A stretch of 20,959 bases of DNA. It comes from a virus. Below the pieces are notes generated by a model. It was given only the letters and a program-made list of their open reading frames with translations, searched no databases and had not been told where the DNA came from. Where the stretch lies: the IMG/VR virus record IMGVR_UViG_3300030099_004116, positions 1 to 20,959 of that record, one strand, 5' to 3'. The position numbers were made by a program, and so were the translations under genes. Shown piece by piece: positions 2,778 through 20,867 of this stretch (position 1 is the first letter of the stretch; each line of letters opens with the position of its first letter).

Positions 2778-2794
2778 CCTCCTAAAATATGTTT
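2778..2794 (-). promoter_or_regulatory. Leader and Shine-Dalgarno of the capsid gene, shared with the 704-aa fibre gene
   Basis: On the minus strand the capsid leader reads AAACATATTTTAGGAGG. The leader of the 704-aa fibre-like gene carries the same 11-mer (AAACATATTTT) followed directly by GGAGG. Two unrelated genes sharing an untranslated leader suggests a common translation or mRNA-stability element, possibly for abundant proteins. The 5' end of the element overlaps the scaffold stop codon. Confidence 0.45.
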
Positions 2795-4062
2795 TATTTA
2801 ATTCCGGCTAAACGTTTCATTCGCTCTGCGAATGCATCATGTTTAGGTGTGCTCTCAGCACGAGAAGCACGAATAACAGAAGTTGGACGGCTAATAGCTT
2901 CGCTCAATGTTTTTGGTCCACGATTTGGTGCAGACTCCACTGTGCTTTGAAGCGTGTTAAAAATTGTCCTTGCCTCTGTAACTGAATCAGATTTTGAAAT
3001 AGCTTCGACAATTCTATCTTTTTGTCGCTCATTTAAGGAGGTATTTCGCAATACGCGATTCGTATAAAGTAAGCGTGCGTTAGAAAGATTGACTCCCTGA
3101 AGGGATTCTTTCATCTCAATAGCTGCGCGCTTAAGGTTATCAAGTTGCTCACTGAGTTGGCTATTTTCAAAAACCAACTCTTCTTGAGCCTTCTTTAAAG
3201 TGTCTAATTCTTCTTCCATGTCAGTGCTGCGGCGATGTGCGATCTCTTTCTCCATCTGGAACTTCTTGTCCTCAGCGGAACGACCAGCCCATCCAGCCAA
3301 GTCAGCACCCATGTCAACTGTAAGCTTCTCAACGATGGTATCAATTAACTCATCGGAGATTTCTAATTCTTCTTCAAGTCCTGCTCTTTCTAATTCAGAA
3401 GCAGCCTCGTCAGCCATCATAGCATCCAAGTTCGCCATCATGCTGCGAAGCTTGGGATCTTCAACAGCATCTCTGTCTTTCTTAAGTTGGGCTAGCAACT
3501 CTCTAACAGTAGCCATCAATTCATCAGCGGAAGCTTCTTTCTTTTCTTCTTCCATTGTATCAAGCACGGCCTCATCTTGAGCAGCAGGATCTTCAATTGT
3601 GATTGTATCTTCGTCTTCAAGGAGGGCAGCGAGGATAGCCTCTTCAATCTCAATGTCTTCATCAAGATCTTCTTCCTCGTCATCGCGAGCACCAGGGGCA
3701 GGCGGCATTGAAGGCATAGATGGCATTGACATTTCTTGAAGGGCTTCCTTGAGAGCACCAAGATCTAAATTGATCTCAACGTCCTCGCCTTCCTCGGCTA
3801 ACTGGTTGAGGTTATCGCCTTCCATCTCGCTTAAACCATCGGTAGCAGCAAGTGGGACATCCTCAACGTCCTCTTCTAAAGAAGCATCGCCCTCTGCGGG
3901 AGCATCCTCGTCAAGACCAAGCTCGTCCTGCTCTAAAAGCTGTTCGAGAGTCTCACGAACTTCCGTCGAGTACTTATCGACAATAGCAGCCTCAGCATTC
4001 TTGAGGGCTGCTTCACGTAATGCTTGTGCATCTACAATGGCTTCTTTAAGTAAGTTAGACAT
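2794..4062 (-). CDS. 22: Prohead core scaffold protein, gp22-like, 422 aa
   Basis: It lies directly upstream of the capsid gene, the position of T4 gene 22. It is extremely acidic in residues ~45-190 with runs of Glu/Asp, and is predicted largely alpha-helical and coiled-coil (notably about residues 275-325). It ends in a basic tail, RMKRLAGIK, resembling other T4-type scaffolds. Scaffolds form the inner core on which gp23 assembles and are then degraded by the prohead protease. Many L-x-E and I-x-E triplets are present (LKE near residue 7, LRE near residue 17), as expected for a substrate, though such triplets are common in acidic proteins. A short acidic Met/Pro stretch (MSMPSMPSMPPAPG) lies near residues 111-124. 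It is longer than T4 gp22 (about 270 aa). Start: ATG with AAGGAG. The assignment rests on position and composition rather than motif identity. Confidence 0.88.
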   Translation of the reverse strand: MSNLLKEAIVDAQALREAALKNAEAAIVDKYSTEVRETLEQLLEQDELGLDEDAPAEGDASLEEDVEDVPLAATDGLSEMEGDNLNQLAEEGEDVEINLDLGALKEALQEMSMPSMPSMPPAPGARDDEEEDLDEDIEIEEAILAALLEDEDTITIEDPAAQDEAVLDTMEEEKKEASADELMATVRELLAQLKKDRDAVEDPKLRSMMANLDAMMADEAASELERAGLEEELEISDELIDTIVEKLTVDMGADLAGWAGRSAEDKKFQMEKEIAHRRSTDMEEELDTLKKAQEELVFENSQLSEQLDNLKRAAIEMKESLQGVNLSNARLLYTNRVLRNTSLNERQKDRIVEAISKSDSVTEARTIFNTLQSTVESAPNRGPKTLSEAISRPTSVIRASRAESTPKHDAFAERMKRLAGIK

Positions 4063-9473: not shown

Positions 9474-9712
9474 CAGTTTCTATTTCTATTACGCTTTTGT
9501 CGCTTCTTTTCTTCTCGGAGTCTTGTGCGTTGTGCTCTGATGCGCTTATCTTTCTTTGCCTCCGATGGCTTCTTGTGGTATCTTCTTTCGCGATACTCTT
9601 CAACAATTCTAGTTTTCTTTGTCTTTTTTAGAAATCTACGAATCATTCTCTCTGAATTGTTCTTACAAGATCTTGCATCAACAGAAAAATTTACGCTTTT
9701 ATTTCTACTCAT
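9473..9712 (-). CDS. Phage-encoded ribosomal protein bS21, 79 aa
   Basis: Small-subunit protein S21 sits near the anti-Shine-Dalgarno end of 16S rRNA and helps initiation. The protein is very basic. VNFSVDARSCKNNSERMIRRFLKKTKKTRIVEEYRERRYHKKPSE (quoted in parts: VDARSCKNNSERMIRRF, then IVEEYRERRYHKKPSEA) follows the S21 plan, where E. coli has FDVALRRFKRSCEKAG, EVRRREFYEKPT. A basic tail of Arg/Lys/Asn follows. I chose the ATG at 9712 (MSRNKSVNF) because it has GGAAGG at proper spacing and overlaps the preceding stop as ATGA. A TTG 15 bases earlier is less likely. Phages and large viruses are known to encode S21, probably to bias host ribosomes toward viral mRNA. Its place in the middle of a head operon is notable. 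Confidence 0.88.
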   Translation of the reverse strand: MSRNKSVNFSVDARSCKNNSERMIRRFLKKTKKTRIVEEYRERRYHKKPSEAKKDKRIRAQRTRLREEKKRQKRNRNRN

Positions 9713-10140
9713 TTCATTGCCTTCCAAACTTGTGAAGCACCACCAATCAAAGAACTAATATCAACACCTGCGTCGCTAGGATCTCCCAAATCGACTGAAC
9801 CTGGTTTTGGACCAGAAGATGATGCTTCTCTGTTAGTTAGTGGCTCTGTGCCTTCAAACAAATTAACTCCATTGTAAGCGCTCGCTCCAATTGAGTCCAT
9901 CAATTTTTTGCGGTGCTGTCTAAGTTGCTCGTTTGTTTTTTGAACTTGCTTCTTTATCTGCAAGTCTTCATTAAATAGGGCTTCAGATGTTTTTTGCTTA
10001 CTCTCAACAATAACATTTGCATTCATGCCTTGAGCAACCTCAGAGACAATGTTAGTTAACAAGCCGCTCTCTAAAAGAACCTCGTGAATACATTCTTTTA
10101 CAACAGGCTTAATTAATTTTTTAAGTTCGTTCTTTTTCAT
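9709..10140 (-). CDS. Conserved phage protein of unknown function, possible prohead component, 143 aa
   Basis: The N-terminus MKKNELKKLIKPVVKEC continues IHEVLLESGLL. It resembles, more loosely, the MKITK module of other genes here and offers I18-H-E20 and L22-L-E24 as possible prohead-protease sites. A helical, charged middle (about residues 45-85) is followed by SIGASAYNGVNLFEGTEPLT, a Ser/Gly/Pro linker, DPSDAGVDIS and a C-terminal VWKAMK. I recall this pattern in marine T4-like contigs but know no function. Its ATG follows the upstream stop directly, with GAGGAA inside the upstream gene's last codons, and its own stop overlaps the bS21 start (ATGA). It has no membrane segment. Confidence 0.72.
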   Translation of the reverse strand: MKKNELKKLIKPVVKECIHEVLLESGLLTNIVSEVAQGMNANVIVESKQKTSEALFNEDLQIKKQVQKTNEQLRQHRKKLMDSIGASAYNGVNLFEGTEPLTNREASSSGPKPGSVDLGDPSDAGVDISSLIGGASQVWKAMK

Positions 10141-11586
10141 TTATTCCTCAAGTAACATTTTATTCAATTCGCAACGGAAAGCCTCTTGTAATAGCTTTAC
10201 GTACTCATCTTCAGAGTAGCCTCTACGCTTAAATTGTCTACGAATAAAACTAGTAACACTTTTTCTAAGTTTATTAAACTTTTGCGGATCATCAAAAATT
10301 GCTTTAAGTGCTGGATCTTTATCAAGAAGTTTTTGGTTGTCAGATACAAATCTAGCCATAATTTTAGCCATCACATTTTGCTCTTTACCACTGCGAATGT
10401 CTGATCTTCTAGCAGACTTAGCAGCTTTTTTGGCTTGTCTGTAATCAAAGGCATCTCTGGCGCGCCTTCTAAAAGGAGGATCATTTCTCGTGTATTTCAT
10501 TAACTCTTTTATTTCATTATCAGATATAGCATCAATTGTGCCGGCTGGCATAGAACTACGTGGTGATTTTCTTTTCTTGAGAAAAGCTCTGAACTTATCG
10601 GGATTTTGTTCTTTAGCGATGTTATGAATACCTAAAATAAAAGAATTAGCAAATTCTCTAAATTCTTTATCTGTAGAGCGTAATTTACTAGCGTGCCCAT
10701 AGATGTAGCGCAAAACTGTTCTTGCTTCAGGGGTCCAACGGGCTTCATTAAGCAAAGCCTCTTTAATTATTGACATTCCTTCAGCAACAGGTATATTTCT
10801 TTGTTTTAAATATTTACCAATTCTTTTAGCAATCTGCTGTGCTGACTGTTGAGACATACCAATCTTTTGAAGCTGCATAACTAAAGGCTGCTCTTTTCTT
10901 TGCTCATCGCCAACCCTAAGATCTTGTTGTCTTTTGGTGATAGAAAGGGGAGCGTCTTTTGGTAATTCAGATTCGTCACCATCTCCAGCATCACCTTCAG
11001 CACCATCACCCCCTGCCGCAGCGGGTGGACCACCAAATCTACTAAGTCGAGCTAAATCTGCAGTTTGTGGAGCGCCAGTGCTAGCCCTGCCAGTAACTGG
11101 TCCCATGTAATTAAAAACACCAATGTTTTTTTGCTTTGGCTGTTCTGCGGGTGCAGCGGCTGGTTTATCGCCACCAGTTCTAATTTGCTCTATTTTTGCT
11201 GTGGCTTTCGCGATGGTATCTTCAATCGCTTTTTTCTCCATCTCGCCAGTGGTGCCAAGCTCTAACTCTGCCCTCTTGCGAGCAATAAGTTCTTGCAATA
11301 ACTTTATTTGCCTGTCCATAATGATAGCAGCTTTTTCAGCCTCTGTGCCAGCTTGATCAATCTTAAATGCTGGGTCGTCTTGTAAAGCTTTTAGAGCTTC
11401 CTCGGCATACCTTTCCACCTCTCCTTTTCTTTCTAGATCAGCTAGAATGTTCTTAGCGGCAGTGCCAAGTCTTTTTAAAGAATCAGCGACAGTGGCTTCA
11501 TTAAGCACTTCAATTTGTTCACTAGAGAACGAACGCCAGCTTTCCATAACAAGCTGATCGTTTTTGAAACTAGACCAATTACTCAT
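10141..11586 (-). CDS. Unknown phage protein downstream of the prohead protease, 481 aa
   Basis: It lies just after the protease gene, overlapping it by 8 bases, where T4 has the scaffold. The start (MSNWSSFKND) runs into QLVMESWRSF near residue 20 and L28-N-E30, a possible prohead-protease site. Residues ~35-145 are helical and charged. Residues ~150-225 are a Pro/Ala/Gly/Asp-rich linker. The remainder is helical and strongly basic (KRKSPRSSM, FRRRARDAFDYRQAKKAAKSARRSD), ending in an acidic helix, EAFRCELNKMLLEE. A basic, helical, linker-containing protein in this position could be an internal or core head protein, perhaps DNA-binding, but I do not recognise the family. Start: ATG with GAGG in the protease 3' end. 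Confidence 0.75.
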   Translation of the reverse strand: MSNWSSFKNDQLVMESWRSFSSEQIEVLNEATVADSLKRLGTAAKNILADLERKGEVERYAEEALKALQDDPAFKIDQAGTEAEKAAIIMDRQIKLLQELIARKRAELELGTTGEMEKKAIEDTIAKATAKIEQIRTGGDKPAAAPAEQPKQKNIGVFNYMGPVTGRASTGAPQTADLARLSRFGGPPAAAGGDGAEGDAGDGDESELPKDAPLSITKRQQDLRVGDEQRKEQPLVMQLQKIGMSQQSAQQIAKRIGKYLKQRNIPVAEGMSIIKEALLNEARWTPEARTVLRYIYGHASKLRSTDKEFREFANSFILGIHNIAKEQNPDKFRAFLKKRKSPRSSMPAGTIDAISDNEIKELMKYTRNDPPFRRRARDAFDYRQAKKAAKSARRSDIRSGKEQNVMAKIMARFVSDNQKLLDKDPALKAIFDDPQKFNKLRKSVTSFIRRQFKRRGYSEDEYVKLLQEAFRCELNKMLLEE

Positions 11587-12184
11587 CGTCTAATACCTCA
11601 TTGAGCAGACGATTGATACGATCCGCTTTTGTAAATACTTTATTCGTATAATCTTTGGCCTCTTTCATCATAAAGGCACCAGGAGTTGAAGGCTCAGAAA
11701 CAAAGTCAAAACAAATTAACTGAAAATCATCCTCAACCATTGTGCGACCTGCGGACTCTGAAACAGAACCCATACCGCGAGAAGAAATACCAAGAGTCAC
11801 ACCGGACTCAACAAGGGAACGAAGAATTTTGCCAGATGGTGTATCGAGCACGCGGGCTTTACCCATAACGGACTTACCATCCCACCAAACTTCTGTAATC
11901 ATATGCGAAGCATTCTTAAGATTGATAACAGAATCCTCTGGGTGATCTAACTCACCAAGTGCTCTGTTCTCTTTTACTAACTTCTCATAGTTCTTCATTT
12001 CTCTCATCAATACGCGATGAGGATAAACGCGACCATTTCCATTCTGAACATCAGCCTCTTGGAGTTTACCAGAAAGCATCATGCCGCCATCGGCAACAAA
12101 ACGCTTCTCGTCTTCGGTAAGAAGATCTTTACAGACTCCTCCCTCACACAAAGCATAAAATTCTCTTAATAATTTTTGACTCAT
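11579..12184 (-). CDS. 21: Prohead core protease, T4 gp21 family, 201 aa
   Basis: This serine-type protease is activated inside the prohead, cuts capsid and core proteins after (L/I)-x-E, and destroys the scaffold. The order of conserved blocks fits the family: GKLQEADVQNGNGRVYP (about residues 39-55), ENRALGELDHPE with probable catalytic His81, MITEVWWDGKSVMGKARVLDTPSGK (about 95-119, in parts), GVTLGISSRGMGSV with nucleophile candidates Ser134/Ser135, and FQLICFDFVSEPSTPGA (154-170). The length matches T4 gp21 (212 aa). L6-R-E8 and L194-N-E196 near the two ends could be self-processing sites, as in T4. The start has AGGGA about 8 bases ahead. Downstream are the 481-aa protein and, after the fibre insertion, the scaffold and capsid substrates. 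Confidence 0.95.
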   Translation of the reverse strand: MSQKLLREFYALCEGGVCKDLLTEDEKRFVADGGMMLSGKLQEADVQNGNGRVYPHRVLMREMKNYEKLVKENRALGELDHPEDSVINLKNASHMITEVWWDGKSVMGKARVLDTPSGKILRSLVESGVTLGISSRGMGSVSESAGRTMVEDDFQLICFDFVSEPSTPGAFMMKEAKDYTNKVFTKADRINRLLNEVLDDE

Positions 12185-12202: not shown

Positions 12203-12292
12203 TTAAGCGGGCGCAACCCGCTCGTCTATGCAGCCTTTCTTACAAAGTCTGACTGGCTGAAGCATCCACTTACGTGTCCAAAAGTCGCTCAT
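12203..12292 (-). CDS. Candidate 29-residue ORF between the MKITK gene and the protease
   Basis: The ATG overlaps the preceding stop as ATGA, the same coupling used by real genes here. The frame runs 29 codons and fills the gap exactly. The peptide begins MSDFWTRKWMLQPVRLCKKG and has two Cys, three Trp/Phe and a net positive charge. There is no strong Shine-Dalgarno of its own, so reinitiation would be needed. Its last codons and stop lie in a GC-rich hairpin. It may be a real micro-protein or a leader controlling protease expression. No family is recognised. Confidence 0.45.
   Translation of the reverse strand: MSDFWTRKWMLQPVRLCKKGCIDERVAPA
12206..12222 (-). other. GC-rich hairpin just upstream of the protease gene
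   Basis: AGCGGG/CCCGCT is a perfect 6-bp stem with a 5-base loop, followed on the minus strand by TAATTTTCT. The T-run is too short for a confident terminator. It may be an attenuator or mRNA-stability element lowering protease output, and it overlaps the end of the 29-codon ORF. Confidence 0.4.
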
Positions 12293-12582
12293 TCTGTTTC
12301 TCCAATAATTTTATCCAACTCAGCCGCCAACATATCAAGTTTTGGCTTTACAGCACCAGAAGAAAGCATACCTTTAGCTGCTGCCTTTTGCATCTTTGCG
12401 ACCATAGTAGCCATAACAGCTCTTTCGTTGTCATCAACACCTGCAGCAGTTACACCCTTAGCAGCGTCCATGGCTGCTTTTCTAGCATCAGAGCCAGAAA
12501 GCTTAACTGGTGGATCTTGCTCGTCTAATACGGCTAACTCTTCAAGAATAATCTCTTTTAATCTATTCTTCGTGATCTTCAT
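12289..12582 (-). CDS. MKITK-module protein, probable internal head protein, 97 aa
   Basis: It begins MKITKNRLKEIILEELAVL, one of five proteins in the window with this N-terminal module. I12-L-E14 fits the prohead-protease consensus. The rest is Ala/Lys/Met-rich and helical (DARKAAMDAAKGV, then VMATMVAKMQKAAAKGM), with no Cys or membrane segment, so the mature piece would be a small helical protein. The gene sits two steps upstream of the protease. Its start overlaps the last 20 bases of the DUF1360-like gene, with GAGGAT as ribosome site. An internal-head role is inferred from the tag and context. No function is known for the body. Confidence 0.75.
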   Translation of the reverse strand: MKITKNRLKEIILEELAVLDEQDPPVKLSGSDARKAAMDAAKGVTAAGVDDNERAVMATMVAKMQKAAAKGMLSSGAVKPKLDMLAAELDKIIGETE

Positions 12583-12904
12583 TGCCGATCCTCATGTTTT
12601 GTGCTATTTGAATTCCGTCATCACTGAACACCATACTAAAAATATAAGATGTCCCAGATGATAAAGAGCCCATAATAATAAAATTAAACAAACTTACGTC
12701 AAAACTAAATAGTTCTGTTAGCGGAGAAAGTAAAACTAAAAACCAACCAACATGAAAACCCATACACATTGGACAATGAAAAAGCTTGCCGTAACCTTTG
12801 AATCTTTCTTTTGCTGGTCTAAATCTTTTAATTAGCGGCATGTCACTATACACAAGAATTTGTGTAAGTCCATATGCTGCTAAAACAAAAATTAAGAGTT
12901 CCAT
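12563..12904 (-). CDS. DUF1360-like small membrane protein, 113 aa
   Basis: Three hydrophobic segments are visible: residues ~1-19 (MELLIFVLAAYGLTQILVY), ~50-62 (FHVGWFLVLLSPL) and ~71-93. Between the first two lies FHCPMCMGFHVGWF, with a C44-x-x-C47 pair before the second segment, the hallmark of DUF1360 membrane proteins found in Bacillus and many phages. It probably resides in the inner membrane. Its biochemical role is unknown, and the CxxC could bind metal or form a disulfide. Start: ATG with AGGGA 8 bases ahead. The C-terminal NEDHEE is read from bases that also encode the MKITK module of the next gene in another frame. Confidence 0.82.
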   Translation of the reverse strand: MELLIFVLAAYGLTQILVYSDMPLIKRFRPAKERFKGYGKLFHCPMCMGFHVGWFLVLLSPLTELFSFDVSLFNFIIMGSLSSGTSYIFSMVFSDDGIQIAQNMRIGNEDHEE

Positions 12905-12912
12905 TGTTGTCC

Positions 12913-13455
12913 CTATTCAAGAGTATAAAGATAGTTCATCGCATAAGGATCTCTAATGTATCCTTTACGGATAGATCCTTGCTTGACAGCCTGTGGAACC
13001 TCGCCCAATTCTGTAGAGTCAGCATTGTCTGGATCAATCAACTCATCATCAGTCATAGAAACAATTGCTTCTGTGTGTTCGAAGTATGGGCGTTCTTCTG
13101 TGATAAAATGAGAAATGTTTACAAGGGCTAGCTTTGTAGCGCTTGTATCTTCATTATCGGGCGTCTGCATAGTTGCCTCAAAAGAGCCATAGAAAGAGCC
13201 AGCCTGGATAGACTCTGGAATAACAAGACCTCTTTTCTTTAGGTAAGCAAAAAGTCTATTTTGTGCTCCGTAAACATAATCAGAGGCAACTTCTTTTGGG
13301 AAAGCGATAACCTTGTTTTGAGCGGACGAAAGAATGATGTCGATGTCACCATGATCAAAGATCATAAGATCACCCGAAAGGCTCTTTCGGATATCCATTT
13401 CAAGGGTGACTAATTTTCTGTTGGCTTTGTTGCCAACTCTAATCGTTATCGCCAT
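12913..13455 (-). CDS. Conserved head-module protein of unknown function, 180 aa
   Basis: I placed the start at the ATG at 13455 (MAITIRVGNKANRKLV). GAGGAAA lies ahead of it, and the alternative TTG five codons earlier would use up that ribosome site. The protein is soluble, with an N-terminal beta strand, a DLMIFDHGDIDIILSS segment near residues 30-45, VIAFPKEVASDYVYGAQNRLFAYLKKRG near 48-75 (quoted in parts), and an acidic C-terminal half ending DPYAMNYLYTLE. It overlaps the 275-aa gene by 17 bases. Between portal and protease T4 carries core genes 67 and 68. This protein is in that place but shows no similarity I can detect. Confidence 0.75.
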   Translation of the reverse strand: MAITIRVGNKANRKLVTLEMDIRKSLSGDLMIFDHGDIDIILSSAQNKVIAFPKEVASDYVYGAQNRLFAYLKKRGLVIPESIQAGSFYGSFEATMQTPDNEDTSATKLALVNISHFITEERPYFEHTEAIVSMTDDELIDPDNADSTELGEVPQAVKQGSIRKGYIRDPYAMNYLYTLE

Positions 13456-14266
13456 TATAAATTTCCTCAACTAATGACTGGGTTTTGAGAACAGTCATCA
13501 AAACATTTTCGTTGATGTCTGATTTAGCAAAAGACTTTAGCTTCTCAACAATCTGGTTTGTCTTATTGAGCATGTCTTCATCGTTCTTGATAGCATTAAC
13601 ACTAACAGCCTCGGCAAGTTTTATTTTAAGACGACCAATCTCTGTATTGAGATACATCTTCAACTCTAAACCATTATCAGAGAAAGATGTAATGTATCTT
13701 GTAAGAAGATCTTTTTGCTCTTGAAGAAGCCCACTTTCATACTTATCGTTGAACTTACCAACAAAGGTTCTAAAAGTAACATTATCAATAGCATGCGTAT
13801 CAACATTCTGTGCTGTTGTACTCATACCCTTTACAATCTCACCCTCAAGAATAACTCTATTTTTTGGTGATGTCTTTTGTGAGAACATCTGATCAATTGT
13901 AGCAAGAGCCTTGTAGTTTGGAACAAAGTTGTTGAAGATCTCTGGCGTAAGTTCTTTGTTGATGTCGTGGATCAACTCGGTCTGCTGCTTGAATAATCCA
14001 GTTGGATCAATCATCATCTTTTGTCTGCGAGACTCTATAAGGACTTTTTGTGATGTATTCTCGTCAAGGCTTTGATTTTCATAAAGAGATCTATAACATT
14101 CAAGATCTTTTCTCAATAAGCTTTTAGAGTGAAAGTGTCTTTTGATAATAGAGATGGTTTTATCTCTTCTCTCAATATCTTCTTTGAGAACAGCAACTGT
14201 CGCTTCTCTTACTAATGCCTCATAAACAAAAGCAGTATTGCGCTTTTTATTATGTCTAATTTTCAT
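13439..14266 (-). CDS. Conserved phage protein of unknown function after the portal, 275 aa
   Basis: It begins MKIRHNKKRNTAFVYEALVREATVAVL, shown here in parts as MKIRHNKKRN and TAFVYEALVREAT. This N-terminus recurs, by memory, right after gp20 in marine T4-like phages. The protein is almost entirely alpha-helical and charged, with likely coiled coil near residues 205-255 (LKIKLAEAVSVN, NKTNQIVEKLKSFAK), and has no membrane segment. It overlaps the portal by 11 bases, with TTGGAG in the portal end serving as ribosome site. Position, helicity and charge are what a prohead-core or portal-associated assembly protein (T4 gp67/gp68 position) would show, but homology is not visible. Confidence 0.75.
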   Translation of the reverse strand: MKIRHNKKRNTAFVYEALVREATVAVLKEDIERRDKTISIIKRHFHSKSLLRKDLECYRSLYENQSLDENTSQKVLIESRRQKMMIDPTGLFKQQTELIHDINKELTPEIFNNFVPNYKALATIDQMFSQKTSPKNRVILEGEIVKGMSTTAQNVDTHAIDNVTFRTFVGKFNDKYESGLLQEQKDLLTRYITSFSDNGLELKMYLNTEIGRLKIKLAEAVSVNAIKNDEDMLNKTNQIVEKLKSFAKSDINENVLMTVLKTQSLVEEIYNGDND

Positions 14267-16268
14267 TCTTTTGCTCCAATAAAGTCTCTTTCTTGGTGTC
14301 TAAACCTTCCAAGAGAACACGCAAACTGCTATCAATCTCGAAAAGACGTGACTCTTCATCATGCTCTCTCATGGTATAAATAGATTCATCTTGCTCATAA
14401 ATACCTACATTAGCACCAATTGGGTTTGCGAGCGTATTAATCTCAGAACCTGGGAGTGTGTTTCTAACGCCAGAGCTTGCTTTCTGCGCTCCGCCGGCTG
14501 CCTTCATAGACCTACTACGAGGACCACCACCAGAGCGCCTATCATCGCGTTTAGGGTAATAGATTTTCTTACCCTTACTGTTTGGTCCTCCGTGAATTCT
14601 TGGAGCGTCACGAGAGCCAGGAGGCACTGCTAATAATGGGGATTCGTCGCCACCACCTGCTTCATCGCCGGCTGGTGCCTCACCTGGAGCCTCTGGTGCT
14701 AAATCAGCGGGCTCAATCTCTGCTGGACCTCCAGGTTCTGCACCCAAGTCACCACCAAGTTCACCACCTAAATCGCCTCCTAGGGCTGCACCAAGTTCTC
14801 CTCCGCCAGATGCTGCTTGTTCGGCAACTGCTTGGAGGGCAGCATCGTGCTTACGATCATAATACATCTCACGCTGGTTTCGGATAAAGTCCTCGTGACC
14901 CATACCAAAGATGTTTTCCATAACCCAGCGACGAGAGAAGTAGCCTTCGGTAGCAGACGCAGCAATATCAAACTTCTGTTTCCAATGCTCAATCTCTTGA
15001 AGCTCAGCAATCTTGGATGGGTTATTGAGAGAAAGCGAGAAGTTTAAGAGATCATCACCACGGAAACCAAGAGTATAAAGGTGAATAATTCCAATCTTTG
15101 TAAGCTCTGAAATAATAACACGCTGTAATCTTTGAATAGTTCTAGAAAAACGAATGTCTTTTTGAGCTAATGTTGTCTTATCTTCTGTGGCACCCTCGCC
15201 CATAGCCAAATAAGCCTGTGGGATCTTGAGCGCAGAGAACAATTTATCACGAAGATACTTGATATCGTCAATAGCAGTAATGTTTTGTGCTCCAGCAAGT
15301 GACTGAATATCAGTAACAGATCCAGCACGGACAGGAATAAAATAGTCTTCTTCAATAGACATAGGGTTATAACGTAGATCGATTTGTCCTGTGTTTGGAT
15401 CAACAACTGAATGGCGCTTCAACTGCGTGACAATTTTCTCCATGTACTGCTCAACATCCTGTGGAGGAATAGCGCCAACATCAATCTTAAATACGCGACG
15501 CTCGGAAGAACGAACAACACGATAAGCCATCATAGAGTCTTCCATAAGAGTCAACTGACGCCAAATACGACGAGCAGGCTCTAAAATAGAAGAACCGTAT
15601 GGAATGTATTTATCATTTCCTAAAATGCGGAAATGACAAACTTGCCAGTTTTCAAAAGTCATACCAGCAGAGTTCCACTGATACTGAACGTAATTTGGAT
15701 TTGTTGAGTCTTTACCTTCTAATCTTTCAATCTCTGTTGGCGGAAGAGCAATAACAGACTTCACGCCGTACTTATCGTCAATGTCCAAATACAAAAAGAA
15801 GTCTCCATACTTACACATTGTGCGAGACCAGCCAAAAAGGTTGTACTTAAGATTAAGTACTTGATCAAAAAGGATGTTTAGTACTGCTCTAATCTCTTCG
15901 TTGCTACATTTAATGTTGAGCATCGGACGAAGTTCGGAATAAGTTGTCATCTCATCTGCATAAATATCTAATGTAGAAGCAATCTCTGGTGTGTACTCCA
16001 TCTGATCAAAGTCAACATAACGCTCTGTGCGACGCTGGTTGGCCATTGCATCAGTGGCAACAACATCAAGGGGGTTATAAACCGACTTTTTAAACTGTTG
16101 CCCAGAAGCGGACTTAAAGCGAGAACCAAACTTATCTAAATGCTGGCGGCGAATACGACGACCAGACTGCGAACGATAGTTGATAATTGGCCCAGAGAAC
16201 AGTCTCGTAAGTGCTTTGAATAAATCCGATTGTGGATTTGCTGGGTTTCTTGAGTTTCTTTTCGCCAT
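14256..16268 (-). CDS. 20: Portal vertex protein, T4 gp20 family, 670 aa
   Basis: It forms the dodecameric ring at one capsid vertex, the channel for DNA and the docking site for the terminase. Typical gp20 blocks are present: RYVDFDQMEYTPEIASTLDIYADE (about residues 83-106, in parts), LFGWSRTMCKYGDFFLYLDID, ALPPTEIERLEG, EDSMMAYRVVRSSERRVFKIDVG, and an IKYLRDKLFSALKIPQAYLAMGEG block (shown in parts). It is ~145 residues longer than T4 gp20 (524). The excess is a C-terminal extension with a Gly/Ala/Glu/Pro-rich stretch (~485-543), a basic Gly/Ser patch (HGGPNSKGKKIYYPKR, GGGPRSRSMK) and a final acidic helix. Its start lies 8 bases after the terminase stop with only a weak GAG ribosome site. 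Confidence 0.96.
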   Translation of the reverse strand: MAKRNSRNPANPQSDLFKALTRLFSGPIINYRSQSGRRIRRQHLDKFGSRFKSASGQQFKKSVYNPLDVVATDAMANQRRTERYVDFDQMEYTPEIASTLDIYADEMTTYSELRPMLNIKCSNEEIRAVLNILFDQVLNLKYNLFGWSRTMCKYGDFFLYLDIDDKYGVKSVIALPPTEIERLEGKDSTNPNYVQYQWNSAGMTFENWQVCHFRILGNDKYIPYGSSILEPARRIWRQLTLMEDSMMAYRVVRSSERRVFKIDVGAIPPQDVEQYMEKIVTQLKRHSVVDPNTGQIDLRYNPMSIEEDYFIPVRAGSVTDIQSLAGAQNITAIDDIKYLRDKLFSALKIPQAYLAMGEGATEDKTTLAQKDIRFSRTIQRLQRVIISELTKIGIIHLYTLGFRGDDLLNFSLSLNNPSKIAELQEIEHWKQKFDIAASATEGYFSRRWVMENIFGMGHEDFIRNQREMYYDRKHDAALQAVAEQAASGGGELGAALGGDLGGELGGDLGAEPGGPAEIEPADLAPEAPGEAPAGDEAGGGDESPLLAVPPGSRDAPRIHGGPNSKGKKIYYPKRDDRRSGGGPRSRSMKAAGGAQKASSGVRNTLPGSEINTLANPIGANVGIYEQDESIYTMREHDEESRLFEIDSSLRVLLEGLDTKKETLLEQKNEN

Positions 16269-16276
16269 TTAGTTTC

Positions 16277-17860
16277 TCACTTTATAATCCAACCAAACTG
16301 CTCATATGTTTTTTGTGCTTCAGTTTTTTGTTGCATAATGCTGTCTTTTTTATAACCATGCTGCCCTTTGATCTGCGTATTCATGGTAGTTTTCGAAGTA
16401 ATAATTGCATTTGAAAAAGCCATTTGGTAATTTAGTTCTCTTGCATTTGCTTGAAGTGCAGTATCGCGAACCCAACAACAAATAGCAAGAGCCATAATTA
16501 AATCATCATGGTAGCCTTTCATAGCTTGTGGTTTGCCATGACTCCAAATAAATGTTTTGAATTCACTAACTACACGGGTAGAATATATCTTAATTAGTTT
16601 ATTTCTTATAAACTCCTCTAATTTAGCAATGATAAGAGGTCTTGTCTTCATACTAGTAGAGAAGCCCGGCACAGCAGAGTTATGAACTTCAGCTTGATGC
16701 TGTTCAATATACTCGTGTGTCGATTTAATTGAATAATACAAATTAGGATAGTTATATTCTATCAGTTTATCCAGAACTGTGTAGCCAATATTATTATTTT
16801 CTACAACCAACATACAATTTCCAAACTCTCGACCAACTTGATTTAGCATTTGTGCAAACATATCCGGTGTTGGCTTGCCTTGATATTCTGCTATAATTTC
16901 AAGGGTTTCTAATTTTAGTATGTGAAAAGTAGAATAGTCTTCACCGTCGCCGCGTGCAACATCTGCTACCATCAAATAGTTACAAGATGGATCAAATTCT
17001 TGCCACATCCAAATATTTCTATCAAATCCTGTTCGGTACTTTGGTTCGCAAACATTTGTAAGCATCCATTCCATGTCCTCTGAATCAATAACAGTGTCAC
17101 CAGAAGTATTAAAGTTACATTCTAGCTCCTGTGCGATTTGTCTGCGGGACATGTTTTTGGTTTCTTTACGATACCATTCTTGATCTCTGTCGGGATGAAC
17201 ATGCCAAGGTAAAGTTGTCAAATTAAAATTATTCGCTCCTGCCTCTGCATCGGTGCAAGTTTTATGAAACCAATTGCCAACACCATTAGGAGTGGATAGA
17301 GCAATGCAGCGACCACCAGTAGAAAGAGTAGGATACAAACCAGTCCATAGATCTTCTAGTCCTTCGATGTGTGCTGCCTCATCAAGAACCAACAAAGACA
17401 ATGCTTCTGAACGACCAGCGTCGCCAGAGGTAGAAGCAGCCTTGATAGAAGAGCCATTAGATAACTCAAAGGATGTGCGGTTATCAATATTGATGTTTGC
17501 AATGCGGATCCAATCAGGAAGATTCTTCATAATCTTCTTGACTTTATTTACTAAGTTTCCTGCTGTCGCAAACTTTGTTGCCATAACAAGGACAGCCTTA
17601 TCTCTATGAAACAACATAAGCCAGACAATGTATCCGGCTGTGATTGTTGAGATTCCCAACTGTCTTGCTTTCAGGATGACGTTAAAGCGATAATCATTAA
17701 AGTCTTTTAGTAGAACATCCTGAAAAGGATATGTATTGAAAAGAATTAGTCCGTGCAAAGGGTGTGAAATTCTGGCGTAAGTCTTCAAAAAATAAACGGG
17801 GTCTTTACCACATTTAAGTATTTCTTGAACTCTTTTCTTTTTGTCTAACTTGAACGCCAT
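16277..17860 (-). CDS. 17: Terminase large subunit, T4 gp17 family, 527 aa
   Basis: This ATP-driven motor packages DNA through the portal and cuts concatemers. ATPase domain: Walker A region KARQLGIST at residues 64-72, with Ile where T4 has the usual Lys (SRQLGKTT); Walker B LLVLDEA with D160-E161; coupling motif ALSTPNG at ~187-193. RNase-H-like nuclease: YLMVADVARGDGEDYS with D300, then MLVVENN with E354, and YHDDLIMAL with D452-D453, giving the expected acidic triad. The length is somewhat below T4 gp17 (610 aa). It lies directly upstream of the portal. The start ATG at 17860 has a weak ribosome site and is close behind the upstream stop, suggesting coupling. Confidence 0.97.
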   Translation of the reverse strand: MAFKLDKKKRVQEILKCGKDPVYFLKTYARISHPLHGLILFNTYPFQDVLLKDFNDYRFNVILKARQLGISTITAGYIVWLMLFHRDKAVLVMATKFATAGNLVNKVKKIMKNLPDWIRIANINIDNRTSFELSNGSSIKAASTSGDAGRSEALSLLVLDEAAHIEGLEDLWTGLYPTLSTGGRCIALSTPNGVGNWFHKTCTDAEAGANNFNLTTLPWHVHPDRDQEWYRKETKNMSRRQIAQELECNFNTSGDTVIDSEDMEWMLTNVCEPKYRTGFDRNIWMWQEFDPSCNYLMVADVARGDGEDYSTFHILKLETLEIIAEYQGKPTPDMFAQMLNQVGREFGNCMLVVENNNIGYTVLDKLIEYNYPNLYYSIKSTHEYIEQHQAEVHNSAVPGFSTSMKTRPLIIAKLEEFIRNKLIKIYSTRVVSEFKTFIWSHGKPQAMKGYHDDLIMALAICCWVRDTALQANARELNYQMAFSNAIITSKTTMNTQIKGQHGYKKDSIMQQKTEAQKTYEQFGWIIK

Positions 17861-17866
17861 TCATTT

Positions 17867-18415
17867 CTATTGGTTTTTCTTGCGTGTATCGTTCTCTGGT
17901 CGCTTACCACCGTCACCAGTCCAGCCGCCCTGACTAACAAAGTCACGCCATCTATCTTCTGCTTGTGGTTTGGAGCCAGTCTCGTTATTCATCTCTTCGT
18001 CAAGTCCGCCAACTCTAAAATTAAGTTTAGCATTGACAAAAGAACGAACGCGGGAAGAGTTCTGAACTAGAACATCAATCTCGCCTTCTTTTGTAAGGGT
18101 AACTGCGTTTCCTGTGATACGCTTGTACTCGCCCTTGAGCCATTTAGAAATATCCATCATACGCTGCTCTGTATCAGTCTCAAAGCCAGAAGCATAAACT
18201 TCTTTTAAGTGAACATCAGATTGATAAGTAAGGCACATAATATTTCCGGAAAACCTAACACCAAAGCCATCCATAACGCGATGGTCGAGCATCATGTTGC
18301 CCTCTTCACGCTTTAAACCAATCTTTACTGGTTCGCCATTTTCATCTAAGGCACCATCGTAGCCGTTGGCTGCTGCCTGGGATAAACCCTGAACTATTTC
18401 ATAAATTGTTGCCAT
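17867..18415 (-). CDS. Conserved unknown protein upstream of the terminase, 182 aa
   Basis: It begins MATIYEIVQGLSQAAANGYDGA, shown as MATIYEIVQGLSQ and AAANGYDGA. A mixed alpha/beta core follows, including GLKREEGNMMLDHRVMDGFGVRF (in parts GLKREEG and DHRVMDGFGV) and YKRITGNAVTLTKEGEIDV, and a disordered, charged C-terminal tail (~145-182) rich in Gly, Asp, Lys and Asn. I recall this family beside the terminase in marine T4-like phages. The location 6 bases upstream of the large terminase makes a small-terminase or packaging-accessory role conceivable, but no helix-turn-helix or coiled coil typical of gp16 is visible. Start: ATG with AGGAAA. Confidence 0.72.
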   Translation of the reverse strand: MATIYEIVQGLSQAAANGYDGALDENGEPVKIGLKREEGNMMLDHRVMDGFGVRFSGNIMCLTYQSDVHLKEVYASGFETDTEQRMMDISKWLKGEYKRITGNAVTLTKEGEIDVLVQNSSRVRSFVNAKLNFRVGGLDEEMNNETGSKPQAEDRWRDFVSQGGWTGDGGKRPENDTRKKNQ

Positions 18416-18426
18416 TTTAGTATTTC

Positions 18427-18492
18427 CTATTTCGAAAGATTCTCAATCTCTTCTTTGATGGTTTGCTTAAGTTGTGCTTTTGTTATTTTCAT
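18427..18492 (-). CDS. 21-residue free-standing MKITK-module ORF
   Basis: The ATG lies 14 bases after the previous stop, with AAGG about 9 bases ahead. The frame encodes MKITKAQLKQTIKEE, then IENLSK and a TAG. That is essentially the N-terminal tag of the 92-aa gene with nothing after it. The first 17 codons differ from that gene at 3 of 51 bases, two of them changing Ile to Thr. It is either a bare tag peptide that is really made, or the remnant of a gene whose body was lost. The intact ribosome site and correct stop favour translation. I12-K-E14 would be cut by the prohead protease, leaving a 7-residue peptide. Confidence 0.6.
   Translation of the reverse strand: MKITKAQLKQTIKEEIENLSK
18442..18492 (-). 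repeat. 51-bp direct repeat encoding the MKITK module, copy in the 21-residue ORF
   Basis: 48 of 51 bases match the copy at 18995-19045 in the same orientation about 550 bases away. The identity includes synonymous positions, so this is a recent DNA-level duplication or gene-conversion tract rather than convergent protein sequence. Confidence 0.9.
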
Positions 18493-18506
18493 TATAGTTT
18501 ACCTTA

Positions 18507-18755
18507 CTATAGTATTTCAAGCTTAATGTAGCCATAACTTCTTTTAGCAACATCGGCTGAAAGGTCCTCTCTAATTTTATTAAGTGCGGCGGCCGCTGCT
18601 GGGTCATCCTCTGACGCCATGCTAAGCTCAATCAAGAGATCAAAAAAGGCACGACCTTGAGCAACGATACTATCAACATCAATTGCTTGCTCGTTCAAAA
18701 CTTTAGAATACTCTTCTTTGATGATCTGCTTAAGTCTATTTTTTGTGATGTTCAT
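18507..18755 (-). CDS. MKITK-module protein, probable internal head protein, 82 aa
   Basis: The N-terminus MNITKNRLKQIIKEEYSKVL carries the shared module with I12-K-E14. The body is small and acidic: VDSIVAQGRAFFDLLIELS, then EDDPAAAAALNKIREDL and a C-terminal YGYIKLEIL. It is probably helical with no Cys or membrane segment. It sits between the 92-aa and 21-residue module ORFs, making three in a row. The bodies share no obvious sequence, so the tag and not the cargo is what the family has in common. Start: ATG with AAGGAG, 11 bases after the upstream stop. The internal-head role is inferred. Confidence 0.75.
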   Translation of the reverse strand: MNITKNRLKQIIKEEYSKVLNEQAIDVDSIVAQGRAFFDLLIELSMASEDDPAAAAALNKIREDLSADVAKRSYGYIKLEIL

Positions 18756-18766
18756 ATTAGTGCTCC

Positions 18767-19045
18767 TTACTTAGACATCTTGCGTAAAGCAGCTTCAATG
18801 TCGTCAAGCTCCTCTTTACGGCCACGACCCATTGGGTCTTTCTCGCTACGCAATTTAGCAATAAGAGCCTCTAAGTCTTCCATGTTATCAACTTTTTCAT
18901 CAAAATCAATCGCAGACTTAATCGCATCCCTGGCTTTCTCATAGCCAAGATCTTTCATAAGCCCACCAATAGATTCATCCTCTTCGGTGAGAGCCTCAAT
19001 CTCTTCTTTGATAATTTGCTTAAGTTGTGCTTTTGTAATTTTCAT
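18767..19045 (-). CDS. MKITK-module protein, probable internal head protein, 92 aa
   Basis: The N-terminus is MKITKAQLKQIIKEEIEAL with I12-K-E14. The body is acidic and helical (GGLMKDLGYEKARDAIKSAI, then DNMEDLEALIAKLRSEKD), ending DDIEAALRKMSK. It is soluble, with no Cys. Its first 26 bases overlap the end of the 133-aa gene, with GGAG as ribosome site in that gene. The DNA of its module is duplicated in the 21-residue ORF. A function for the body is not recognised. Confidence 0.77.
   Translation of the reverse strand: MKITKAQLKQIIKEEIEALTEEDESIGGLMKDLGYEKARDAIKSAIDFDEKVDNMEDLEALIAKLRSEKDPMGRGRKEELDDIEAALRKMSK
18995..19045 (-). repeat. 51-bp direct repeat encoding the MKITK module, copy in the 92-aa gene
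   Basis: Partner of the copy at 18442-18492, with three mismatches in 51 bases. This copy also encodes, in another frame, the last eight residues of the upstream 133-aa protein. Confidence 0.9.
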
Positions 19046-19421
19046 TATTTGGTCTCCATCCTGTTAGCCATCGCTCCTCTCTGCCTTCCACGTATTGAAT
19101 GTAGCATTTATAACAACAATCAAATTTTGTAAGGCAAACATCGTCCATAGATTTCTTTGGAAAGACACCACAGACAGGACAAGATTTTAGCGATTCCCTA
19201 TTAAGTAGTTTTTTTGAGATCTTTATGCCATTTACATCAACTTTTTCTGAATACTCTTCTTGCGTCTTTACTTTATCGTAAAGTTTCTTCATTTGTTCCA
19301 AGTATTCTTTCTCTGCGGCTTCATCCCAATCTGCTCTTGGGTTCTTAATAGCCTCTTCGCCATACTTCTTTGATATGGCTTTTTCTATCGCAGCCATTTG
19401 GTTAGGATCTTTAACTTTCAT
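19020..19421 (-). CDS. Cys-rich, possibly zinc-binding protein of unknown function, 133 aa
   Basis: I chose the ATG at 19421 (MKVKDPNQMAAIEKAI) over a TTG one codon earlier. The N-terminal half is helical and charged with EYLEQMKKLYDKVKTQEE near residues 39-56. Residues 80-106 hold C81-x-x-C84 and C102-C103-x-x-C106, which could bind one zinc. After this comes YIQYVEGREERWLTGWRP, which by memory is conserved in marine phage homologues. The final residues NNENYKSTT are read from bases that also encode the MKITK module of the next gene. It overlaps the upstream gene by 11 bases with a poor ribosome site, so coupled translation is likely. Function unknown. Confidence 0.75.
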   Translation of the reverse strand: MKVKDPNQMAAIEKAISKKYGEEAIKNPRADWDEAAEKEYLEQMKKLYDKVKTQEEYSEKVDVNGIKISKKLLNRESLKSCPVCGVFPKKSMDDVCLTKFDCCYKCYIQYVEGREERWLTGWRPNNENYKSTT

Positions 19422-19839
19422 CAAACGCTCTGTATGCTAAATAAGTTGTGCCAACACCAGAAACAACACCAAGAGTAGTCCAAAGCCAACGGCGTTGTGG
19501 TGGTACGTTATCAATAATGTCTTGTAAAGATTGAATTTGTCTGTCTTTTGTTTCAATCATCAAATCATACTCGCTTTGTAGAGACTGATAACGGATGCTT
19601 AAATTATCTAATTCAAGTGTAAGCTCTATCTCTGTCTCTTCAATTGCTCTGCTAATCTGTAAATCACATTCACGGACAGCAAACTCTCTTGTGACCATAA
19701 TCTCTGCTGTCGCGATAGGATCAAATAAAACACCATCAAATGGTGCCGGCTGATCTTCTGTAAGAACAGAGAATTGTCCAGGTGGAGCAGCTAGCGCTTT
19801 ACTTAATAATAACACATTAAGGAACATAATTGAACCCAT
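19411..19839 (-). CDS. Membrane-anchored coiled-coil protein, possible second spanin component, 142 aa
   Basis: Three zones are visible. Residues ~1-18 are hydrophobic and end in ALAA, like a cleavable signal peptide (no lipobox Cys). Residues ~58-110 are a Glu/Gln/Leu-rich coiled coil. Residues ~117-136 (RRWLWTTLGVVSGVGTTYLAY) form a C-terminal transmembrane segment with a short cytoplasmic tail. If exported, it would sit in the inner membrane with its coiled coil in the periplasm. It overlaps the end of the preceding spanin-like gene by 23 bases. The sequence TEDQPAPFDGVLFDP near residues 27-41 is, by memory, recurrent in marine phages. A start at Met5 (19827) is an alternative that gives a cleaner signal peptide. 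The lysis role is inferred from neighbours. Confidence 0.65.
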   Translation of the reverse strand: MGSIMFLNVLLLSKALAAPPGQFSVLTEDQPAPFDGVLFDPIATAEIMVTREFAVRECDLQISRAIEETEIELTLELDNLSIRYQSLQSEYDLMIETKDRQIQSLQDIIDNVPPQRRWLWTTLGVVSGVGTTYLAYRAFDES

Positions 19840-20212
19840 AAATTTCTTCTATCTTTCCAACAAGCGCATTTTGATCTGTATCAAACTTTTCAACATACTC
19901 ATTCTTTTCTTTTACACGCTCTTCAATCAGTATCTCAACAGCAGCATCATACTTTTCTTGTAGTTCGTATAAGTCGTTTTGATATTTCTCTAATGCTTCG
20001 TCACGAAGTTCTAGTTCTGTTTTGTGAATGTCCTGTAACCCATCCACTTGCTCTTGTAAAGAAATAACGGATGCGTCGTATGCTTGCTTTAATAAATCTT
20101 GGTCTCGCTGTGATTTCATCCACAAAAAACAAAAGAGAAAGGCGATAATCACCTCTCTCCAATAGTTCTTTAGAAACGAAAGTTTTTTAGCGTATTCTAA
20201 AACAAGGCTCAT
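19817..20212 (-). CDS. Putative i-spanin-like (Rz-like) lysis protein, 131 aa
   Basis: A single N-terminal membrane segment (residues ~20-32, EVIIAFLFCFLWM), preceded by basic residues, is followed by a long soluble coiled coil (~35-120) rich in Glu, Gln, Leu and Lys. That is the layout of inner-membrane spanins, which bridge the periplasm in the final step of lysis of Gram-negative hosts. The gene starts in a TAATG overlap with the holin, so the two are co-translated. No outer-membrane lipoprotein spanin is evident inside or after it. The 142-aa protein may be the partner. Assignment is by topology and neighbourhood, not by sequence family. Confidence 0.65.
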   Translation of the reverse strand: MSLVLEYAKKLSFLKNYWREVIIAFLFCFLWMKSQRDQDLLKQAYDASVISLQEQVDGLQDIHKTELELRDEALEKYQNDLYELQEKYDAAVEILIEERVKEKNEYVEKFDTDQNALVGKIEEIYGFNYVP

Positions 20213-20412
20213 TATCGCCCCTTAAGTTTTGCAATCCCATCAATTACGGCTTGTCCGCCAATGTAAATGCCAGAGATTGCAACCCAGTCACCAGAATCTA
20301 AATTAGATGTGATAACCATTGCAGTTGCTGTAAGCCATACTAAAAACTTACGAGAAATTGCCTTCTCAACTAAACCATCAATTTTTGATTTTGTTGCTTC
20401 ACTCATGCTCAT
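20212..20412 (-). CDS. Putative holin, 66 aa
   Basis: It is a short protein with a charged N-terminus (SEATKSKIDGLVEKAISRK), two hydrophobic segments (residues ~23-37, FLVWLTATAMVITSN, and ~41-60, GDWVAISGIYIGGQAVIDGI) joined by a tight turn, and a basic C-terminus (AKLKGR). This is holin-like: it would pore the inner membrane at the end of infection. The start has AAAGGAG with ideal spacing and overlaps the preceding stop as ATGA. The next gene is a spanin-like protein, which supports a lysis cassette. No endolysin is present in the window, so it must be elsewhere. Confidence 0.75.
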   Translation of the reverse strand: MSMSEATKSKIDGLVEKAISRKFLVWLTATAMVITSNLDSGDWVAISGIYIGGQAVIDGIAKLKGR

Positions 20413-20867
20413 TTTTTCTCCTTTGCTATTTTAGTAGCGGTGGCATACATAACACTCTCGGCGTCATCACCATAACGCTTCTTAAAATCCTTTTTGTTTT
20501 TCTTCATACCCTTAACAACTTTCTCTTTTTCTTTCTTCATTGCTTTGGTAAGTTTTTCTTCGTCTAACTCTTTACCATCTGGGTAAAGCATGCTGTCTAA
20601 AGATCTTGCACCACGAACCTTTGGCTTATCAGTACCCTCGAAGTGTCCGTAAACAGTCTCAATGTATTCGTGAGCAAGGGTAATCTTTGACTCAACCCAC
20701 TCTTCAAGATCAGAAGCATCATTTACATACTGCTGGATCTTGGGGATAATTTCTTTCATGTATTCAAGTTGAGAAACTGCCATGTATCCCTCGCCTTCTT
20801 CTTCCTCGGCAAGAGCATTAATTTCTTCTTCAATAATCTGTCGTAGTTGTGTCTTTGTGAGTTTCAT
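20409..20867 (-). CDS. MKITK-module protein with two further recurrent modules, 152 aa
   Basis: The N-terminus MKLTKTQLRQIIEEEINAL carries the tag with I12-E-E14. A second module at residues ~30-77 (MAVSQLEYMKEIIPKIQQYV, then LEEWVESKITLAHEYIETVY) and a third at the C-terminus (KKRYGDDAESVMYATATKIA) both resemble, by memory, short modules reused in many marine T4-like phage proteins. A Lys-rich linker joins them. The whole is helical and soluble. It lies just before the holin (ATGA overlap), and its start overlaps the upstream stop (TAATG). A virion-internal role is inferred from the tag. Confidence 0.77.
   Translation of the reverse strand: MKLTKTQLRQIIEEEINALAEEEEGEGYMAVSQLEYMKEIIPKIQQYVNDASDLEEWVESKITLAHEYIETVYGHFEGTDKPKVRGARSLDSMLYPDGKELDEEKLTKAMKKEKEKVVKGMKKNKKDFKKRYGDDAESVMYATATKIAKEKK

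Follow-up and report, generated by a model that had tools for sequence, protein, structure and literature searches.

Why should genes whose products are otherwise unrelated open with the same short run of amino acids? The question is posed by a 20,959-bp viral fragment, IMG/VR record IMGVR_UViG_3300030099_004116, the whole of which is the window analyzed here (the record holds no further genome), and in which five open reading frames (ORFs) on the minus strand share an N-terminal tag. An initial annotation of this DNA read the tag as an address for the prohead interior that is cut by the head protease, and the spread of the tag, its modularity, and its restriction to phages with T4-type heads and a Peptidase_S77 (S77) protease support that reading. 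Two classes of tag, K (the class in these five genes) and W, occur throughout the lineage. Both are modular N-terminal elements that are conserved as protein, trade places on homologous bodies, and finish with the recognition motif of the protease. On sequence grounds we consider it likely that the K-class tag (MKITKxQLKQIIKEE...[LI]xE) is a cleavable capsid targeting sequence (CTS) like that of the T4 internal proteins; the tags are most likely a new variant of the T4 CTS. The evidence for capsid targeting and cleavage is convergent and indirect.

The Tagged Genes of the Window

Gene starts were taken from simple ORF calling. All five starts named in the initial annotation (20867, 19045, 18755, 18492, and 12582) were recovered and fit M[KN][IL]TKxxL[KR][QE][IT]I[KEL]EE, with I-x-E at residues 12–14 in every product (IEE, IKE, IKE, IKE, and ILE, in that order). 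A second [LI]-x-E, absent from that annotation, lies shortly downstream in four of the five.

20826..20867, minus strand: K-class tag, residues 1–14 (MKLTKTQLRQIIEE), start of a 152-amino-acid ORF; second L-x-E is LAE21
20409..20867, minus strand: putative tagged cargo ORF, 152 amino acids, with a C-terminal YATATK module; C terminus matches phrog_12788 and phrog_727
19004..19045, minus strand: K-class tag (MKITKAQLKQIIKE), start of a 92-amino-acid ORF; second site LTE21
18767..19045, minus strand: putative tagged cargo ORF, 92 amino acids (ORF call)
18714..18755, minus strand: K-class tag (MNITKNRLKQIIKE), start of an 82-amino-acid ORF; second site LNE22
18507..18755, minus strand: putative tagged cargo ORF, 82 amino acids (ORF call)
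18427..18492, minus strand: tag-only micro-ORF, 21 amino acids (MKITKAQLKQTIKEEIENLSK), the tag and six more residues
12541..12582, minus strand: K-class tag (MKITKNRLKEIILE), start of a 97-amino-acid ORF; second site LDE21
12289..12582, minus strand: putative tagged cargo ORF, 97 amino acids, occupying the variable slot immediately upstream of the protease

Five tagged genes are thus present, as had been claimed, but not five cargo proteins, since the product starting at 18492 is only 21 amino acids long; four candidate cargo proteins and one tag-only micro-ORF remain. The four long bodies are indeed unrelated, with no pairwise blastp match at E ≤ 1. The tag pattern found no match in 200 first-order Markov windows, and its twelve fixed positions have a probability of about 7e-13 per start methionine, given the amino acid composition of the window.

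Micro-ORFs of 21–25 amino acids, with a stop codon straight after the tag, occur at 18427–18492 of the window and in two other loci (L173:10950–11024 and L286:11918–11983); they may be remnants, may act as free decoy peptides, or may mark places where new cargo lands.

Profile searches identify the head genes of the window as T4-type, with an S77 protease, a gp20 portal, a gp23 capsid protein, and a terminase. The gp21-type protease that the initial annotation had reported scores 118 bits against the Peptidase_S77 profile PF03420 (cut-off 27), which places it in that family. In the sites below, the arrow marks the predicted cut and P1 the residue before it.

11579..12184, minus strand: gp21-type prohead protease (Peptidase_S77), 201 amino acids; PF03420 E 4e-34, phrog_207 E 7e-55
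14256..16268, minus strand: T4-type portal (gp20); PF07230 E 1.1e-80
890..2767, minus strand: major capsid protein (gp23), 625 amino acids; PF07068 E 2e-71
2588..2590, minus strand: capsid protein residue E60, the predicted P1 (LLRE↓S); the alignment places it at LTE↓A of T4 gp23
2794..4062, minus strand: putative scaffold, gp22-like by position and N terminus; no family match

Distribution of the K-Class Tag

A degenerate DNA pattern for the K tag matches at least 120 stretches in IMG/VR, whereas in the bacterial and archaeal genomes of GTDB (257 Gb) the same pattern finds just one contig. This contig, part of a metagenome-assembled genome, is phage-like and has a gene homologous to a phage cargo family. 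The fetched loci yielded 406 distinct K-tagged ORFs, whose 376 longer bodies fall into 279 clusters, 232 of them singletons. The scan of related phages that the initial annotation had proposed therefore finds a tag that is widespread, modular, and nearly absent from cellular genomes, and every readable set of head genes is T4-type and accompanied by S77.

A profile search of 39 records longer than 40 kb recovered 3–27 K-tagged ORFs per record. S77 is present in 26 of these records and gp23 in 22, every one of which also has S77; in the 13 records lacking S77, gp23 was likewise not found. Most tagged genomes are incomplete, and four of the 13 can be explained, either because the contig is a fragment or because the phage is closely related to S77 phages; in three K-tag records without S77 the T4 portal lies at or near a contig edge. 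No tagged record contains an HK97-type capsid (PF05065) or an S78 protease, so the tag does not appear to be common in phages without a gp21-type protease, a distribution that the initial annotation had named as contrary to its reading. One 147-kb record (G022) with tags and no S77 was considered as a counterexample and dropped: 114 of its 191 genes have matches in other tagged genomes, for the most part in the S77-bearing G001.

A tree of capsid proteins gathers the strongly tagged records in a single supported group, whose sister group holds LR756508 and Flavobacterium phage immuto, in which the K-tag profile finds 15 tags (in a huge-phage record) and one partial tag, respectively, together with the untagged Mel-JY01 and RM378. 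The profile found none in T4, S-RSM4, Melnitz, Moby, XacN1, RM378, SRB7757, Mel-JY01, or LR756511. A tblastn search of INPHARED with bare tags gave no match, although such queries are too short to show much, and no occurrence of the literal tag strings was found in PubMed Central (PMC) papers.

Conserved Residues and a Second Protease Motif

Conservation was scored on 215 tags outside the retrieval pattern. The least variable positions after the methionine are L8 (96%), E14 (96%), and I12 (93%); position 15 is E in 79% and A in 11%. Codons vary at conserved residues (all six leucine codons are used at position 8, for example), which indicates that selection acts on the protein.

The module extends weakly up to residue 22, and the K class has a second, sliding [LI]-x-E with P1 at 19, 21, 22, or 23. 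With one protein taken per body cluster as a control for kinship (n = 267), [LI]xE with P1 at 18–24 occurs in 147 proteins, against 83 ± 5.5 after column shuffling. Among 24 motifs of different spacing or residue, only [LI] followed two positions later by E is coupled (z 11.4; z ≤ 3.3 for the other 23). The second motif is found in 55% of tagged and 11% of untagged genes, and a majority of the divergent huge-phage tags have [LI]xE or VxE near residue 22 (VLQE, VLRE, IVNE, IIQE). E14 matches the T4 spacing and is nearly invariant, and A or G is commoner right after the second site; the predicted cut could fall at E14, at the second [LI]-x-E (E19–E23), or at both.

The capsid and scaffold proteins follow the same rule as the tags, with L-x-E sites at T4-equivalent places. 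Throughout the clade, L[KR]E↓[AS/Q] in gp23 aligns with LTE↓A of T4, and near its start the putative scaffold of the window has LLKE↓A at residue 7 and ALRE↓A at residue 17.

A Second, Interchangeable Tag

N-terminal pattern statistics on the genes left after removal of the K class brought out a previously unreported W-class tag, MKLLLENWRKYLNE, in which P1 is E14. The pattern MKLLLENWR[KRQ][YF][LI]xE has 40 N-terminal cases and 2 in an internal control stretch, and a W profile collects 302 distinct proteins in 143 body clusters. A W-tag DNA pattern was also run on IMG/VR, the W-retrieved records being among the matches listed; in 86 W tags from loci not fetched by this pattern, W8 is conserved in 90% and E14 in 77%. 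Of 47 W tags that have lost E14, 23 show [LI]xE again one to three positions away; at control positions the figure is 4%.

The two classes replace each other on homologues: for 26 bodies behind a W tag there is a homologous body behind a K tag (those of L050:1985–2212 and L084:2757–2978 are 76% identical and bear different tags). They are also interleaved along the genome, forming 47 neighboring K/W gene pairs. The W profile matched 27 of 31 other records, and none of 11 (T4, S-RSM4, Melnitz, Moby, XacN1, RM378, SRB7757, Mel-JY01, LR756508, LR756511, and immuto) in a search that had no positive control.

Comparison with Known Systems

The published recognition rule of gp21, L/I-x-E (PMC9026906), agrees with the statement of the initial annotation that T4 gp21 cuts after (L/I)-x-E. 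IPI–IPIII of T4 carry a CTS that gp21 cleaves (Mullaney and Black 1996, cited by PMC9026906 and PMC10052503); by mutagenesis, targeting is the role of CTS residues 4 and 7, and processing that of residues 8 and 10 (PMC9026906). One spacing runs through all three tags: K (L8..I11 I12 x E14), W (W8..F/Y11 L12 x E14), and T4 MKTYQEFIAE (Y4..F7 I8 x E10), so that L8, I11, I12, and E14 of the K tag map onto Y4, F7, I8, and E10. Only this spacing and the residue classes are common, and neither tag profile matches in T4.

The tags resemble the T4 CTS in being short N-terminal sequences on unrelated, small, and diverse proteins (279 K and 143 W body clusters), in the hydrophobic-x-x-hydrophobic-[IL]-x-E spacing, in ending in L/I-x-E (nearly invariant at I12-x-E14, and again as the sliding motif), and in occurring with a gp21/S77 protease and a T4-type head, both in the window and in the S77-bearing two-thirds of the long K-tag records (26 of 39). 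They differ in their letters, in the presence of two classes per genome, in the second, sliding L-x-E of the K class, in numbers (up to 27 K-tagged genes per genome), in a mostly acidic cargo, and in belonging to a large set of uncultured phages from aquatic sources. The head and ejection proteins of SPN3US and phiKZ likewise have N-terminal propeptides that a prohead protease cuts, and are borne in the head; there, however, the site rule is A-x-E, most propeptides are 111–254 residues long, and the accessible part of the source mentions no common transferable tag (PMC10052503). The T-even internal proteins (Ips), whose genes were found through a common signal sequence, likewise combine one leader with unrelated bodies, and Ip1–3 among them are injected anti-restriction proteins; the Ips belong to another lineage and have another leader, and at least 10 are known, as against hundreds of bodies here (PMC12373910).

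The Tagged Proteins and Their Gene Neighborhood

K-tagged proteins are small (median 105 amino acids), and a transmembrane-like stretch is found in one of 361, against 65 expected from their lengths. In genomes with S77, all 124 K-tagged genes lie on the protease strand, compared with 88% of all genes. Few domains can be recognized, namely YkuD, GNAT, leucine-rich repeats, and pentapeptide repeats in the K class, and protein kinase, zeta toxin-like, P-loop kinase, ART-PolyVal, GNAT, GDSL lipase, M23, thioredoxin, and C5 methylase in the W class.

On either side of the S77 gene, the adjoining slots differ from phage to phage and hold K-tagged, W-tagged, or tag-like genes in about 9 of 16 head clusters; both slots are so occupied in the window. 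In T4, core genes 67 and 68 are located between genes 20 and 21. Tag-like helices begin two window genes just downstream of the protease, one resembling the W and the other the K class.

10141..11586, minus strand: 481-amino-acid ORF, immediately downstream of the protease gene, whose start (MSNWSSFKNDQLVMESWRSF..EVLNE) is like the W class
9709..10140, minus strand: 143-amino-acid conserved head-cluster ORF, whose start MKKNELKKLIKPVVKECIHEVLLE resembles the K-class tag

In record G039, the gene that takes the slot of the 481-amino-acid ORF has QLLHENWRNFLSE. The tags may copy the docking ends of such resident core proteins, which would be a possible evolutionary source. Upstream of tagged genes, a T4-like late promoter (TATAAATA) shows no enrichment; it was found before none of the listed capsid genes either, and is uninformative.

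Proposed Role of the Tags and Its Alternatives

We infer core docking, cleavage, packaging, and injection of the tagged proteins as follows. The amphipathic tag helix would dock newly made cargo, by its hydrophobic face, on the prohead core, where the cargo would be trapped; the S77 protease would then cut after [LI]-x-E, at E14 or at the second site near E21/E22, freeing the cargo inside the head before DNA packing. The cargo would be kept with the DNA and probably delivered into the host along with it. The W-class tag would do the same job in the same phages, interchangeably with the K class. More broadly, we lean slightly toward the view that two interchangeable capsid-loading tags serve a whole clade of uncultured T4-type phages. 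Their probable source would be the N termini of the phages' own core proteins encoded next to the protease, and with them each genome would load a large and rapidly changing set of up to about 30 different effectors (kinases, ADP-ribosyltransferase-like proteins, acetyltransferases, and numerous unknown small proteins) into the head, to be delivered together with the DNA.

Several observations weigh against this reading. The residue after E14 (P1′) is mostly E, compared with A/S at the capsid site, and neither a virion proteome nor cleavage data could be found for any tagged phage. The T4 internal proteins are basic, whereas the K-tagged bodies, which are small like them, are mostly acidic (median isoelectric point 5.0, with 26% above 8) and so do not fit the small, basic, DNA-associated type. 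The transmembrane deficit is weaker in the W class (13 of 295, against 40), and most cargo has no recognizable function, Pfam searches on 106 K-tagged and 97 W-tagged proteins being mostly without a match. Among the matches listed, S77 is found in none of 14 W-retrieved records of 54–108 kb, which may be fragments, and in 9 of 11 of those of at least 120 kb. Finally, a few tags sit internally; tag-like stretches within longer ORFs (e.g., TSQLKQFIREELDAFLDE before SEKQRR) occur in L023:2687–3139, in L285 around 3573, and in L095:5919–6770, and suggest fused proteins that the head protease could split.

Of the alternatives, the one that survives best, though we judge it unlikely, is that the tag docks proteins uncut to the prohead core or portal, with [LI]-x-E just capping an amphipathic helix. 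Hydrophobic positions 8, 11/12, 16, and 19/20 suit one such helix, and similar helices begin conserved head-cluster proteins; but in both tag classes the [LI]-x-E spacing is preserved while the motif slides, other spacings and residues are uncoupled, and the motif agrees with the gp21 rule (PMC9026906). It is less probable still that the tag addresses proteins elsewhere, to the tail, baseplate, membrane, or a non-virion assembly: many tagged genes are in clusters distant from the head genes, and YkuD and M23 peptidase domains could act on the cell wall, but membrane proteins are nearly lacking among the tagged, and the linkage to S77 phages, the tagged genes beside gp21, and the fit to its site rule all speak for the head. 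That the shared start is a by-product without a role in the protein (a recombination hotspot, a translation-initiation leader, or a mobile N-terminal exon) is highly improbable, for although tag-only micro-ORFs occur and AGGA precedes K tags in 51% against 29%, codons vary beneath the conserved residues, L8, I12, and E14 are conserved as strongly as the first codons, and the unrelated W tag substitutes for the K tag on homologous bodies.

The T4 internal proteins are few in number; if cleavable capsid targeting is correct, each of these phages carries far more pre-packed proteins than are known for T4. A tag for probable capsid cargo would allow hundreds of unknown phage proteins to be sorted by place of action, and candidate injected effectors or anti-defence proteins to be listed from sequence alone. 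It would also predict where the head protease cuts and supply new loading tags for capsid engineering.

Other Features of Tagged Proteins and Head Genes

Two transferable C-terminal modules were noted, YATATKxAKK (window 20409–20867) and SSEKQRRWACAQ...AEEMC, listed with L285:8514–8948 and L023:2687–3139; the latter module apparently links a cluster of 39 K-tagged proteins and is also found without a tag. In G022, an 89-amino-acid protein (10293–10562; L200) starts like a tag (MKFTHDSLRELIREA), continues with a body very rich in Lys/Arg, and is a candidate DNA-binding internal protein.

The window capsid protein (890–2767) matches Gp23 in two pieces, the second covering 363–610, and therefore has a large insertion relative to T4 gp23. 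The 242-kb record G004, which has the most K tags (27), contains two adjacent gp23-type capsid genes (139350–142938; L158 and L159). In two T4-type phages the S77 domain is matched in two pieces within ORFs of about 580 amino acids (LR756508, 156507–158102; PV062637, 3493–5046), which suggests an insertion inside the protease.

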